From positions 1 to 23,599 of IMG/VR virus record IMGVR_UViG_3300021605_000012: a stretch of DNA of 23,599 bases, one strand, 5' to 3'. The stretch is from a virus. The translations under genes were made by a program, and so were the position numbers. Shown here piece by piece: positions 19,566-22,337 of this stretch (within the stretch, counting starts at the first letter, position 1; each line of letters starts with the position of its first letter). The notes under the pieces are model-generated. The model was not told where the DNA came from. It saw nothing but the letters and a program-made list of their open reading frames with translations, and made no database searches.

Positions 19566-19802
19566 CTAGATCGCCCCGCGCTTGGCGAGCCCGCGCTCGG
19601 CCGGGTTCCCGCAGATGAGGCTCATGGCGAGTTCGGTCTTCTCGACGGCGATCTGCCAGCGGGAGCCGATCCGGCGGGCGACGACGGGAGGGAGCGCCTT
19701 GTTGCGGTCCTTGTCCGGGAGCATCGAGTTGCGGCACCAGCTCTGCACCGTCTCCGGGTGGACGCCGATCTGCTTCGCGTAGCTGCGGGCGGATAGTCTC
19801 AT
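19566..19802 (-). CDS. Excisionase-like HTH protein (AlpA/MerR type)
   Basis: This 78-residue protein begins MRLSARSYAKQIGVHPETVQ and continues S-W-C-R-N. The A-K-x-I-G-V-H-P-E-T-V-Q-S-W-C segment is a typical winged-helix-turn-helix of the MerR/AlpA/excisionase kind, and the later R-I-G-S-R-W-Q-I is the matching wing. It could be the excisionase that partners the integrase or a regulator of early genes. ATG 19802 overlaps the Rha-type gene stop as ATGA; longer frames lie inside that gene. Confidence 0.8.
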   Translation of the reverse strand: MRLSARSYAKQIGVHPETVQSWCRNSMLPDKDRNKALPPVVARRIGSRWQIAVEKTELAMSLICGNPAERGLAKRGAI

Positions 19803-20368
19803 TGGCCGTCCCCGAGTTGAGGCAGGAGTTGAAACCCCGGCAGATACTGGTCGAGAAGCATGAGCGCCGAGGCGACTTCCAAAGCGGCACTCGTTTTGTT
19901 CCCTGTTGCCGTATAGGTCGGCTTGCGGAACTTGTCCCGCACCCGTCCGTCTTTGGTCCTCGCGCCATATTCGCAAGCTGGGCGGGCATTTTTCAAAAAC
20001 TTGCTGACAGCCCAGTTGCTGATCTGCTCGTCGGTCATCGGCGAGTTCCGCAACCGGCGCTTGGCATCGGAGAACGCGGCGACCAGCGCAAACTTGAAAT
20101 CAACGACCTTTTCCGTGTTCTGGAATAGCGTGATGAACGCGGTTGCCTGATCTTCTGTCAGGTGGGCAATGCGGGTTGATTTCGCAAATCCACCGTGGGC
20201 GAGCGGGGAACCCTTCCGCATTTCAAATGCGATTGGGCCAAACTTGGATTGCAGTTTGGGACCGTGAGTTTTGAGCAACTGCAACGCGGCCCGGTGCTCG
20301 ATCCCGCACTGCTCTGCCACCGTGACGGAATCAACGGTCATGTCTTCGCGGATCGTGAGGGAGTTCAT
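19799..20368 (-). CDS. Rha-type phage regulatory protein
   Basis: This 189-residue protein has the pattern of the phage Rha family. An N-terminal winged-helix-like half is built on the phrase A-E-Q-C-G-I-E-H-R-A-A-L-Q-L-L and F-G-P-I-A-F-E-M, and the diagnostic L-T-E-D-Q-A-T-A-F-I-T-L-F-Q-N-T-E-K-V-V helix pair is followed by F-K-x-A-L-V-A-A-F. The C-terminal part is basic. Rha proteins interfere with phage growth or lysogeny choice in a host-dependent way. The start overlaps the RHH stop by four bases. Confidence 0.85.
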   Translation of the reverse strand: MNSLTIREDMTVDSVTVAEQCGIEHRAALQLLKTHGPKLQSKFGPIAFEMRKGSPLAHGGFAKSTRIAHLTEDQATAFITLFQNTEKVVDFKFALVAAFSDAKRRLRNSPMTDEQISNWAVSKFLKNARPACEYGARTKDGRVRDKFRKPTYTATGNKTSAALEVASALMLLDQYLPGFQLLPQLGDGQ

Positions 20369-20556
20369 TTCCGCGATCCTTTCTTTGCGGTATTCAATTT
20401 GGTGTTAACACCCGTTTTGAAGGTGTTAACACCTTCACGGAGTAAACGGCGGATCATGTGAGAAACGGAGCGGTCTTCAAGACGTGCGAGTGTCTCAATT
20501 TGTTTTTTTAACTCGGGTTCGATTTTTGCTGATAGGTGAATTGTTGCAGTTGCCAT
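20365..20556 (-). CDS. Ribbon-helix-helix regulator 2
   Basis: This 63-residue protein starts MATATIHLSAKIEPELKKQI, the beta strand and first helix of a CopG/Arc-type ribbon-helix-helix, and follows with L-E-D-R-S-V-S-H-M-I-R-R-L-L-R. The tail has G-V-N-T twice (42-45 and 49-52). These two repeats are encoded by two copies of the palindrome GGTGTTAACACC inside the gene, so the gene carries binding-site sequence within its own coding region. The first 62 bases overlap the end of the preceding RHH gene. Confidence 0.8.
   Translation of the reverse strand: MATATIHLSAKIEPELKKQIETLARLEDRSVSHMIRRLLREGVNTFKTGVNTKLNTAKKGSRK
20401..20412. promoter_or_regulatory. Palindromic operator GGTGTTAACACC, site 1 (inside RHH gene 2)
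   Basis: A perfect 12-base palindrome, identical to the sites at 20422-20433 and 20726-20737. It starts 21 bases from site 2, two helical turns, so a protein could bind both on one face of the DNA. Confidence 0.7.
20422..20433. promoter_or_regulatory. Palindromic operator GGTGTTAACACC, site 2 (inside RHH gene 2)
   Basis: Identical to site 1. The flanking bases extend the palindrome to a perfect 16 bases (20420-20435, GA and TC outside). It lies in codons 42-45 of the RHH gene. Confidence 0.7.
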
Positions 20557-20707
20557 ATTTCTTTATTGAGATTTCGAGTAGATGTTTAACGGCGTCGCTT
20601 TGATGCGACATGCCGAGTTGGTTTTGAATTGCCCGGATTTCATCGGCAAGTTCTCCATCAACCCATGAGTTGATCTGCACTTTTCCGTCTGCTCTCTTCC
20701 GTGGCAT
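20495..20707 (-). CDS. Ribbon-helix-helix regulator 1, probably leaderless
   Basis: This 70-residue protein has a basic start (MPRKRADGKVQINSWVDGEL), the strand K-V-Q-I-N-S-W-V and a helix pair L-A-D-E-I-R-A-I-Q-N / S-D-A-V-K-H-L-L-E, as in CopG/Arc-type RHH proteins. The C-terminal 20 residues are basic and encoded over the start of the second RHH gene. Its ATG (20707) lies about 7 bases past a -10 element, so its mRNA would start at or next to the ATG. It is a good candidate for the repressor of this region, playing the part that Arc or Mnt plays in P22 (inference). Confidence 0.8.
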   Translation of the reverse strand: MPRKRADGKVQINSWVDGELADEIRAIQNQLGMSHQSDAVKHLLEISIKKYGNCNNSPISKNRTRVKKTN

Positions 20708-20713
20708 GTCGCG

Positions 20714-20742
20714 AATATGTCACAAGGTGTTAACACCGTCAA
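20714..20742 (-). promoter_or_regulatory. Leftward early promoter with operator between -35 and -10
   Basis: On the minus strand TTGACG (20737-20742) and CATATT (20714-20719) are 17 bases apart, with 5/6 and 4/6 matches to the usual bacterial elements. The spacer is almost entirely filled by the palindrome GGTGTTAACACC (20726-20737). Transcription would start around 20707, the start codon of the first RHH gene. Confidence 0.65.
20726..20737. promoter_or_regulatory. Palindromic operator GGTGTTAACACC, site 3 (promoter spacer)
   Basis: This is the third perfect copy. Its position over the -35/-10 spacer of the leftward promoter, and over the -35-like TTAACA of a rightward one, is what a repressor site for both divergent transcripts would look like. 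Confidence 0.75.
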
Positions 20743-20759
20743 CAATTATTTTCAATTAT
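20730..20759 (+). promoter_or_regulatory. Possible rightward promoter for the membrane protein gene
   Basis: TTAACA (20730-20735) lies inside operator site 3 and is followed after 18 bases by AATTAT (20754-20759). This gives 5/6 and 4/6 matches. Transcription would start near 20766, giving a leader of about 37 bases before the GTG at 20803. The two CAATTATTTT repeats here (20743-20752, 20753-20762) make other choices possible. Confidence 0.4.
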
Positions 20760-20802
20760 TTTTCTGCGTGACTTTTCTTTGTAAGAAAGGGAACGTTTCC
20801 GC

Positions 20803-21249
20803 GTGGAAATATTCTGCGCAATTCTTTTTTGGTTTTGCATGATCGTTATTGGACGGATCATATCCCACGCGAAGGGAAGAGGCAGCATGGGGGAGTGGCT
20901 TGCTTTCCTTCTTGGCCCGTTGGGAGTCTTGATCATTTTGGCGATGACGAATCTCAAAAAAGAAGAGGAAGAGAAATCGAAGAAATTTCAAGCCGCTCGT
21001 CAAATGCAGCTTCAGCAAGCGCAACTTCGAGCAATGGAAAATCTCAACATGATTGCGATGGCCCCTCTTCCACCGCGCGAGATTTCAAAAAATCTTCGCA
21101 TCGCATCCGGCGGGGTTGACTTGGGGGAAATGCCCGCGGCAACCGTCAAAATGATGCTGCAAAGTGGGAAGCTGAATTTGCAGGATCATTACTTCGACCG
21201 CGATGCGAACGAGTGGATGCCGCTCGATTGTTGCACGGCGCTCGCCTAA
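20803..21249 (+). CDS. Membrane protein with GYF-2-like C-terminal domain
   Basis: This 148-residue protein is the only plus-strand gene. Two hydrophobic segments (about 2-20 and 32-47) are followed by a charged coil rich in Glu, Lys and Gln (about 50-80). The C-terminal 45 residues resemble the GYF-2 fold: L-R-I-A-S-G-G-V-D-L-G-E-M, V-K-M-M-L-Q-S-G-K-L, then D-A-N-E-W-M-P-L. The start is GTG 20803. It is divergent from the RHH operon and ends 4 bases inside the integrase gene. Expression from the prophage and a role in protecting or altering the host cell surface fit, but are not shown. Confidence 0.78.
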   Translation: MEIFCAILFWFCMIVIGRIISHAKGRGSMGEWLAFLLGPLGVLIILAMTNLKKEEEEKSKKFQAARQMQLQQAQLRAMENLNMIAMAPLPPREISKNLRIASGGVDLGEMPAATVKMMLQSGKLNLQDHYFDRDANEWMPLDCCTALA

Positions 21250-22271
21250 ATCCCCCACCACTCCCGCGCCGCCTGCTTGGTGACGGCCCGAGCGTAGTTG
21301 GAGAAAACAGTCTGGCTGGAAGTATGCCCGAGAAAGTGGGCCGTCTTCCCGGCATCCTCCCCAGCGGCGAGATGATAAGATGCCGCTGAGTGCCGCAGGC
21401 AGTTCCTCGGCCAGTGCTTTTCACCCAGGATGCCCGCCAGCCGAGCCGCATGAACGAGGAATGTTGTCTTGCTCACCGGGATAACACGGCCTTCCCTTGG
21501 CAGCTTTTTGAGCATCCGCAGGGCATTTGCGGGAATTGCGACATACCGCTCGCGCACTCCACGCGTGCGCTTGATGACGCCGGGGGCAACGTGTATCTCC
21601 TTCGTGCGGACATTTACGGCGCCCCAATCCATGCGAAACATCTCTTCAGTCCGAAGCCCGCAGAAGCCCCCGAGGACGATCCAGGCACGCATGTAGTGCG
21701 GCTCGTTCGTCTTGAGTAGCGACCGCATCTGCCCCGGCGCCAGGATCGCCTTGGGAGCCTCGCCCTTGGCAACGAACTCCATCTTGTCGAACGGAGAGCG
21801 GTCCGCGTAGTCGTATCTGACCGCCCAGCGCCAGAACGAACGGCAGAGCGCAAAAACCCCGTGGCGGGTGCGCTGTGCGCAATCCATTGCATCCAGCCAA
21901 TCCCGGCAGTCGAGAGCGCGGACCCCGTTGACAGGGTAGGAGCCGAAACGTGCGACCAGCTTCCCCAGGTGGATGCGGGCGAGCTTGTGCTGTCCCGGCC
22001 CAACGGCGGATTTCTTCGCGGCCAGATAAAGCGCGACGATTGCCCGAACGGTCGATTCTTGGCCGGTCGGATTCTCGGCCACCTTCGCCGGCTCTCCGGT
22101 CGCACGTTCGATTGTCCGCTGGGCAACCCAGACTTCCGCCGCCGTCTCATCGGGGAAAAATCTCCTGATTCTTTTCCCGTTGCCGAGTGCCGGCGGGACA
22201 TCAACGCGCCACGCCTGCCGTGCTTCGTCGTATCGCACGGACATCTTTTTTGTTGTCGGTCGGCCAATCAT
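21246..22271 (-). CDS. int: Tyrosine recombinase / phage integrase
   Basis: This 341-residue protein has a core-binding helical domain (about 70-160) and a catalytic domain with R207 (C-G-L-R-T-E-E-M), K234 (V-I-K-R-T), N290-C-L-R293-H294 in place of the usual H-x-x-R-H, H316 (L-G-H-T-S) and the nucleophile Y326. All but the first box residue are standard. The start ATG 22271 is chosen because the longer frame (TTG 22310) runs through tandem repeats; ATG 22244 is another option. The gene lies 150 bases from tRNA-Asn, pointing away from it, which is the usual arrangement for integration into a tRNA 3' end. It overlaps the plus-strand gene by 4 bases at its end. Confidence 0.93.
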   Translation of the reverse strand: MIGRPTTKKMSVRYDEARQAWRVDVPPALGNGKRIRRFFPDETAAEVWVAQRTIERATGEPAKVAENPTGQESTVRAIVALYLAAKKSAVGPGQHKLARIHLGKLVARFGSYPVNGVRALDCRDWLDAMDCAQRTRHGVFALCRSFWRWAVRYDYADRSPFDKMEFVAKGEAPKAILAPGQMRSLLKTNEPHYMRAWIVLGGFCGLRTEEMFRMDWGAVNVRTKEIHVAPGVIKRTRGVRERYVAIPANALRMLKKLPREGRVIPVSKTTFLVHAARLAGILGEKHWPRNCLRHSAASYHLAAGEDAGKTAHFLGHTSSQTVFSNYARAVTKQAAREWWGI

Positions 22272-22274
22272 CCA

Positions 22275-22308
22275 GTGCCAAAAAGTGCCAAAAAGTCGGC
22301 CTTTTGGC
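22275..22308. repeat. Tandem GTGCCAAAAA repeats plus inverted half copy at the integrase start
   Basis: GTGCCAAAAA occurs at 22275-22284 and 22285-22294, and TTTTGGC (22302-22308) is an inverted copy of the GCCAAAA core. The 10-base period and the place next to the integrase and attachment site suggest arm-type integrase sites or an operator (inference). It is one base different from the TTTTTGACAC motif elsewhere. Confidence 0.5.
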
Positions 22309-22337
22309 AATGCTTATTCCTTTTCGTTCCTGTATAT

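Follow-up and report, generated by a model that had tools for sequence, protein, structure and literature searches.

A putative Arc/Mnt-like control module with candidate operators inside its second repressor gene in a temperate phage

Three perfect copies of one palindrome had been described at a pair of overlapping ribbon-helix-helix (RHH) genes in a viral sequence, one copy at a promoter and two within the coding region of the second gene. The locus raises the question whether the in-gene copies act as DNA control sites or are no more than a repeated stretch of coding sequence. The window, i.e. the whole stretch of DNA that was analysed, is a 23,599-base IMG/VR virus record, of which 23,588 bases are identical, in reverse orientation, to one end of a 52,712-base record. 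Nearly all genes in the window run leftward, and the leftward set includes an integrase, the RHH pair (RHH_A and RHH_B), rha, a Sak4-type recombinase, an exonuclease, a DnaB-type helicase, a terminase-like gene and a portal gene. A MoxR-type AAA gene at the right end of the window is probably host DNA. The two RHH genes are arranged in tandem and overlap by 62 bases, as originally reported, and the start of rha in turn overlaps the stop of RHH_B (Table 1). The region has a single rightward gene, which faces the switch and could be a lysogenic one; the tail of its product resembles GYF_2-type domains.

Table 1. Features of the RHH locus and its surroundings in the window
Feature	Position	Strand	Evidence and remarks
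Tyrosine integrase	21246..22310	-	PF00589, E 6e-12; PHROG search
Probable membrane protein, divergent, 148 aa	20803..21249	+	Sole rightward gene of the region; without Pfam family
Possible rightward promoter, TTAACA-18-AATTAT	20730..20759	+	-35 within O1; 9/12, consensus match only; not conserved in L121
Sigma-70-type promoter, TTGACG-17-CATATT	20714..20742	-	TG before -10; 9/12 matches; O1 in 17-bp spacer
Candidate operator O1, GGTGTTAACACC	20726..20737	.	Fills promoter spacer
RHH_A gene, 70 aa	20495..20707	-	First gene of leftward operon; counterparts in L097 (23% identical), L057 and L121
RHH_B gene, 63 aa, Arc/CopG-like	20365..20556	-	PF01402, E 3e-7; PHROG Arc-like repressor, E 2e-7
Candidate operator O2, in RHH_B tail	20422..20433	.	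Read GVNT; centre 45 nt after first base of Arg codon, RSVS
Candidate operator O3, in RHH_B tail	20401..20412	.	Read GVNT; 32 bp 5' of rha start codon
rha-like regulator/antirepressor gene	19799..20368	-	PF09669, E 3e-10; PHROG 2657, E 1e-16; anti-repressor PHROG 373, E 7e-4
Small HTH-like gene 3' of rha	19566..19802	-	Weak Pfam match, E 0.01

The three exact copies of GGTGTTAACACC were recovered in the window at the RHH locus, and the 52.7-kb record holds no further exact copy of the 10-base core GTGTTAACAC. In 300 first-order Markov simulations of the window, a 12-bp perfect palindrome occurred three times within 500 bp in none and twice in one. O2 and O3 are 21 bp, or 2 turns, apart, and each is the codon series GGT GTT AAC ACC, encoding G-V-N-T. 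O1 fills the spacer of the leftward promoter and is overlapped by the possible rightward -35, which agrees with the preliminary description on both points. A promoter scan at 9 of 12 matches found two promoters, compared with a mean of 0.6 in shuffled sequences, and both overlap O1. In the open-access literature no report of GGTGTTAACACC as an operator was found, the matches being primer-type papers on animal cells, and none of RHH operators within the repressor's own gene.

Both genes had been described as RHH genes. For RHH_B this is borne out by a PF01402 match of 30.5 bits against a cut-off of 20.5 and by the Arc-like PHROG 3431 (E 2e-7). RHH_A alone has no significant match in Pfam or PHROG, and its assignment as a putative RHH protein rests on a profile of four counterparts, which reaches Arc in the PDB at E 0.026, and on a low-confidence single-sequence structure model (pLDDT 67) with the two expected helices but no significant fold match. 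The RHH_A counterparts match the Arc-like PHROG 582 at E values from 9e-6 to 2e-3. One of them, in the viral locus L057 (2658-3020, minus strand), contains its entire RHH unit twice in tandem, the two internal copies being nearly identical.

The anatomy of the locus, namely an operator in the promoter spacer, an overlapping RHH pair and an operator inside the second gene, is shared by three diverged systems: L057, the Akkermansia phage DTMo-2021a (L097) and L121 (G001:40001-52712). With the window, these make up the four systems from which the double-RHH anatomy is known; the repeat played no part in the choice of L097 and L121. L057 was found in a scan of viral contigs for a promoter-like TTGAC with the palindrome, i.e. 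through its promoter copy only, and DTMo-2021a by a protein search with the RHH_A of L057 (39% identity), not by the palindrome. Scans of viral contigs with the RHH_B and Rha proteins returned the same virus only, and an RHH_B search of the phage collection gave no match. Terminase relatives were discarded as a comparison set, being 31% identical and too distant for use.

In L057 the promoter TTGACG-GTGTTAACACC... is followed by RHH_A and then by an RHH_B that overlaps it by about 56 bases. The core GTGTTAACAC occurs exactly three times in this 33-kb record: in the promoter, in the RHH_B tail, where it falls in another frame and is read KVLTP, and just past the RHH_B stop. In DTMo-2021a the promoter spacer contains GGTGGTTAACCACC, and the tail of the overlapping RHH_B contains two copies of GGTGGTGAACCACC, each read GGEPP; GTGTTAACAC is absent from the 10-kb stretch checked. 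The in-gene copies of DTMo-2021a differ from its promoter copy by one central base, with a longest shared run of 7 nt. Because of this difference an exact-match simulation is uninformative, and support comes from a 14-mer search allowing up to 2 mismatches, which found operator-like sequence nowhere else in the 31.9 kb. The promoter layout of the window recurs in L057 and L097, and in all three the ATG of RHH_A, followed by CC, lies 6 nt past the -10 (20707-20720 in the window), so the RHH_A message would start at or beside the A of the ATG and is probably leaderless. The circular Akkermansia muciniphila plasmid pJ30893 (L110, NZ_AP021899.1) is 97.9% identical to DTMo-2021a over the switch, and the element may be a phage-plasmid; the substitutions between the two miss all three operators and are too few for significance.

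At its far end the 52.7-kb record contains a further, related prophage-like region, L121, which is oppositely oriented and has an integrase, a Sak4-type gene and an RHH switch of its own. Here the promoter is followed by RHH_A, the overlapping RHH_B, another RHH-like gene and a Bro-N antirepressor (Bro-N Pfam, E 6.5e-23; Ant PHROG, E 2e-41). The operator, GGTTAAGTGAACC, is an imperfect palindrome, and a 15-nt sequence, GGGTTAAGTGAACCT, is identical in the spacer and in the RHH_B tail, where it is present in one copy and read GLSEP; sharing of this length occurred in none of 2000 simulations. The promoter upstream of the operator, TTSAAAATAATTGTTGACGG, is almost the same as in the window, and its flank (TTGAAAATAATTGTTGACGG and TTCAAAATAATTGTTGACGG) is kept almost unchanged; the operator alone differs. 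One record thus holds two phages with the same layout and different operators, as would be expected if they belonged to different immunity groups.

In DTMo-2021a and L121, then, promoter operator and in-gene operators occupy the positions seen in the window but have shifted together to a new sequence in which they match each other. The position inside the gene is fixed as well. The motif R-S-V-[S/N] occurs in each of the four RHH_B proteins close to where the second helix ends, and measured from the first base of the Arg codon the centre of the first in-gene operator lies at nt 45, 44, 43 and 43.5 in the window, L057, L097 and L121, respectively. The peptide read there is a different one each time. 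The central argument is this fixed position combined with a changing frame and peptide, which a constraint on the DNA can produce and one on the protein cannot; selection is therefore on the DNA. Since promoter and in-gene copies have changed in step in the relatives, those inside the gene are probably genuine control sites, not coding sequence that resembles an operator by chance. This covariation is the strongest support for the original proposal of an Arc/Mnt-like RHH switch in which the in-gene copies matter as DNA; in addition, none of the three relatives has lost the in-gene palindrome while keeping the RHH genes. That the tail repeats are instead a GVNT protein motif or a spreading short repeat with no role in control is hardly credible. 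Palindrome-coded GVNT/VNT-type repeats do occur in a non-RHH protein (L005) and in structural genes, and 21-bp arrays exist elsewhere (L010), but in all four systems the peptide differs while the DNA matches the promoter copy at a fixed position, and the phage genomes hold no other copies.

A very improbable reading makes the sites a centromere, or a replication or recombination site, for an RHH protein with a partition or accessory role. Plasmid partition does employ RHH proteins, the RHH_B of L057 matches a PHROG named partition protein ATPase, and DTMo-2021a exists also as the plasmid pJ30893. Against this, one copy always fills the promoter spacer, there are only two to three copies, ParA was not identified among the scanned genes of the window, and the host record, which includes an integrase, looks like an integrated prophage. 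A restriction site (GTTAAC), integrase arm sites and iterons were likewise considered and set aside.

The reading that we favour and regard as likely is that of a temperate-phage control module, an Arc/Mnt-like autoregulated RHH switch whose intragenic operators would separate expression of the repressor from that of the antirepressor and the lytic genes. In the model that we infer, which takes in the lysogeny role, a single leftward promoter, probably leaderless, would drive RHH_A, RHH_B, rha and the early or lytic genes. A dimer or tetramer of RHH_A and/or RHH_B, the presumed binder, would occupy O1 and block initiation, giving autorepression and immunity; since O1 overlaps the promoter, a bound repressor must hinder initiation. 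The same protein on O2/O3, at the junction of RHH_B and the antirepressor-type gene, would hold back transcription into rha and the lytic genes, whether it formed a roadblock or a loop to O1. In all four systems these sites border the next gene, at distances of 32, 7, 33 and about 15 bp from its start codon in the window, L057, DTMo-2021a and L121, respectively. In this way the repressor could be topped up while no antirepressor was made and the lytic operon was not released. A stronger form of the proposal, which we advance tentatively and regard as less likely than not, is that the repressor gene has a 3' end that doubles as an operator, at which bound repressor stops the polymerase that has just transcribed the repressor's own message before it arrives at the antirepressor, and that this defines a class of phage switches.

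The preliminary description had suggested looping over about 300 bases, and this part did not find specific support. In such a scheme an RHH tetramer or octamer would hold a DNA loop of about 300-480 bp, through which O2/O3, as auxiliary operators, would strengthen repression at O1; we consider this possible but doubtful, at roughly one chance in three. In its favour, promoter and in-gene copies match in each of the four systems, tetramers are formed by some RHH proteins, e.g. Mnt (PMC3325190), and in the window both the O1-O2 and the O2-O3 distances are close to whole turns (28.95 and 2.0). However, the O1-O2 distances of 304, 483, 333 and 359 bp in the window, L057, DTMo-2021a and L121 correspond to 28.95, 46.0, 31.7 and 34.2 turns and have no common helical phase, and the O2-O3 spacing varies (21 bp in the window, 57 bp in both L057 and DTMo-2021a) or is absent (L121). 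The sites keep a constant place with respect to the end of the gene and the start of the following one, but not with respect to O1. With no common phase, a transcription roadblock where repressor and antirepressor genes meet explains the data at least as well as looping.

Another explanation is that O2/O3 are operators of a separate internal promoter for rha or ant and not roadblocks. In its favour, the O2/O3 sites of all four systems lie 7-33 bp before the start codon of the next gene, and in the window a weak TTCAAA-18-TTGAAT, identified by eye, flanks O3. The promoter scan at 9 of 12 matches nevertheless found no promoter on the rha strand near O2/O3 in the window, and by eye none is shared in the other three systems, which makes this explanation unlikely.

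A function at the RNA level, in which the two in-gene palindrome copies would pair with each other and the resulting long hairpin would govern how well rha is translated or how stable the transcript is, is less probable still. A 13-bp stem of -22.1 kcal/mol (z -3.8) is predicted in the window, and hairpins are also predicted in L057 (z -4.5) and L097 (z -3.7). Any tandem palindrome gives such a stem, however, and L121, with its single in-gene copy, has no hairpin (z +0.6); a hairpin predicted in three systems and missing in the fourth cannot be the common function. The promoter copy, moreover, is not transcribed, yet changes together with the in-gene copies. The O2/O3 hairpin could be an added effect. 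An intrinsic terminator at O2/O3 was set aside, as the minus strand has no U-run.

The preliminary description had claimed that no CI-type repressor is seen in the window. Peptidase_S24 (PF00717) had no match in the record of the window, the record of L057, DTMo-2021a or pJ30893, whereas it matched in both control Akkermansia phages, Chambord and Chantilly. The record of the window gave only a sub-threshold HTH_3 match of 13.7 bits. Chambord and Chantilly, whose hosts are sister hosts, carry their CI/S24 switch in the same place as here, between the integrase and the Sak4/exonuclease early operon, but it consists of a single S24 repressor of 262-266 aa, and protein searches with RHH_A and RHH_B relatives gave no match in either phage. 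The claim thus held up, with four systems lacking a CI/S24 match compared with two sister phages that have one, and this suggests, within small numbers and records that may be incomplete, a role for the RHH pair as the main switch. An antirepressor-type gene follows the RHH module in both prophages of the 52.7-kb record, Rha in the window and Bro-N/Ant in L121; the downstream gene of L057 and DTMo-2021a is not an antirepressor by family search.

In P22 the Arc operator lies between the -35 and the -10 of Pant. An operator within the repressor-antirepressor promoter is likewise found in the window and its three relatives. The immunity I region of P22 also resembles the present locus in having two RHH repressors and the antirepressor gene ant, with Arc regulating its own operon. 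The arc, mnt and ant genes are discussed in PMC2629481. Gene content and promoter layout are therefore those of the Arc/Mnt-Ant kind, whereas the divergent arrangement of mnt and arc in P22, whose region also includes the sar antisense RNA, is replaced here by tandem genes that overlap. The operators, unlike those of P22, recur inside the second repressor gene, and the module seems to stand in for a CI repressor and not to add to it.

Operators inside a structural gene that match the promoter operator occur in lac and gal. Those repressors are of the LacI/GalR type, the operator lies in the target gene and not in the repressor's own, and there are no overlapping repressor genes. In mycobacteriophage L5/TipsytheTRex one repressor binds at the promoter and at further sites in the operon, where it is proposed to halt elongation (PMC9283540). 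An L5 genome has more than 20 such sites, asymmetric 13-mers in short intergenic spaces to which a monomer of HTH type binds, whereas here two to three palindromes lie at one locus, inside a repressor gene and beside RHH genes. Membership in the stoperator class was rejected, as the three copies in the window are palindromic and all at the RHH locus, not spread over the genome. Judged from its sequence, the module would belong to a known kind, a P22-like arc-ant operon with a likeness to stoperators, and would be new in its operators within the repressor gene, its tandem overlap and its lack of CI.

If the module works as proposed, it would be a CI-free lysogeny switch in Verrucomicrobiota-type phages, including those of Akkermansia, and it would make testable how a phage keeps transcribing a repressor that is the first gene of the lytic operon. 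Operator copies that change together would supply natural repressor/operator pairs for studying how RHH proteins choose DNA, and the module would offer a route to predicting immunity groups from sequence. Should the 3'-end operator class prove real, repressor specificity, promoter operator and in-gene operator would change as one cassette and yield new immunity types. For annotation, short repeated peptides of the GVNT kind in small DNA-binding proteins may be disguised operators.

Palindromes with the GTGTTAACAC core were also found in or near promoters of unrelated RHH genes, namely in L004, L009 (Microbacterium), L061 (related to an inovirus), L079, L100, L103, L109 and L111; since all except L111 were picked by the palindrome, they document recurrence and not an unbiased frequency. 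In-gene copies 21 bp apart occur in L095, L099, L101 and L102 as well, and the same in-gene arrangement in these other RHH families would make the class widespread. In these four loci synonymous codons were kept at 43 of 44 positions in the palindromes versus 129 of 287 elsewhere, which is not counted as proof because the loci were chosen by the palindrome. Among 399 Bacillota genomes the L099-type RHH gave one weak partial match. In many Pseudomonas-like prophages (L015, L016, L019 and others) TTGGTGTTAACACCAA stands in the promoter spacer (TTGACA-17-AACAAT) of an 86-aa XRE-type gene. With the same core before an XRE-type gene, the sequence alone is no proof of an RHH binder.

Related repeats were seen in other settings. 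A phage PAPS-reductase-like protein contains WVNTKSGVNTKSGVNT, coded by 18-bp tandem GGTGTTAACACC units (L005:456-503). Upstream of a HAD-like gene in a Chitinophagaceae genome, GGTGNNNNCACC quasi-palindromes form a 21-bp array in which the arms are conserved and the centre is variable (L010:3926-4105). Two copies of GGTGTTAACACC exactly 21 bp apart lie in apparently corresponding intergenic regions of two actinobacterial genomes (L011:3129-3161 and L013:338-370). An alphaproteobacterial RHH gene family on a Devosia plasmid (L112) and a Bradyrhizobium plasmid (L111) has operator copies before and over the start, about 33 bp apart, and the operator sequence differs between the relatives (TGTGTTAACACA, ATCCTAGG-type). 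In bajarodino virus 53 (L116), two GCAG[A/T]TA[A/T]CTGC quasi-palindromes lie around the promoter of an inovirus RHH gene.
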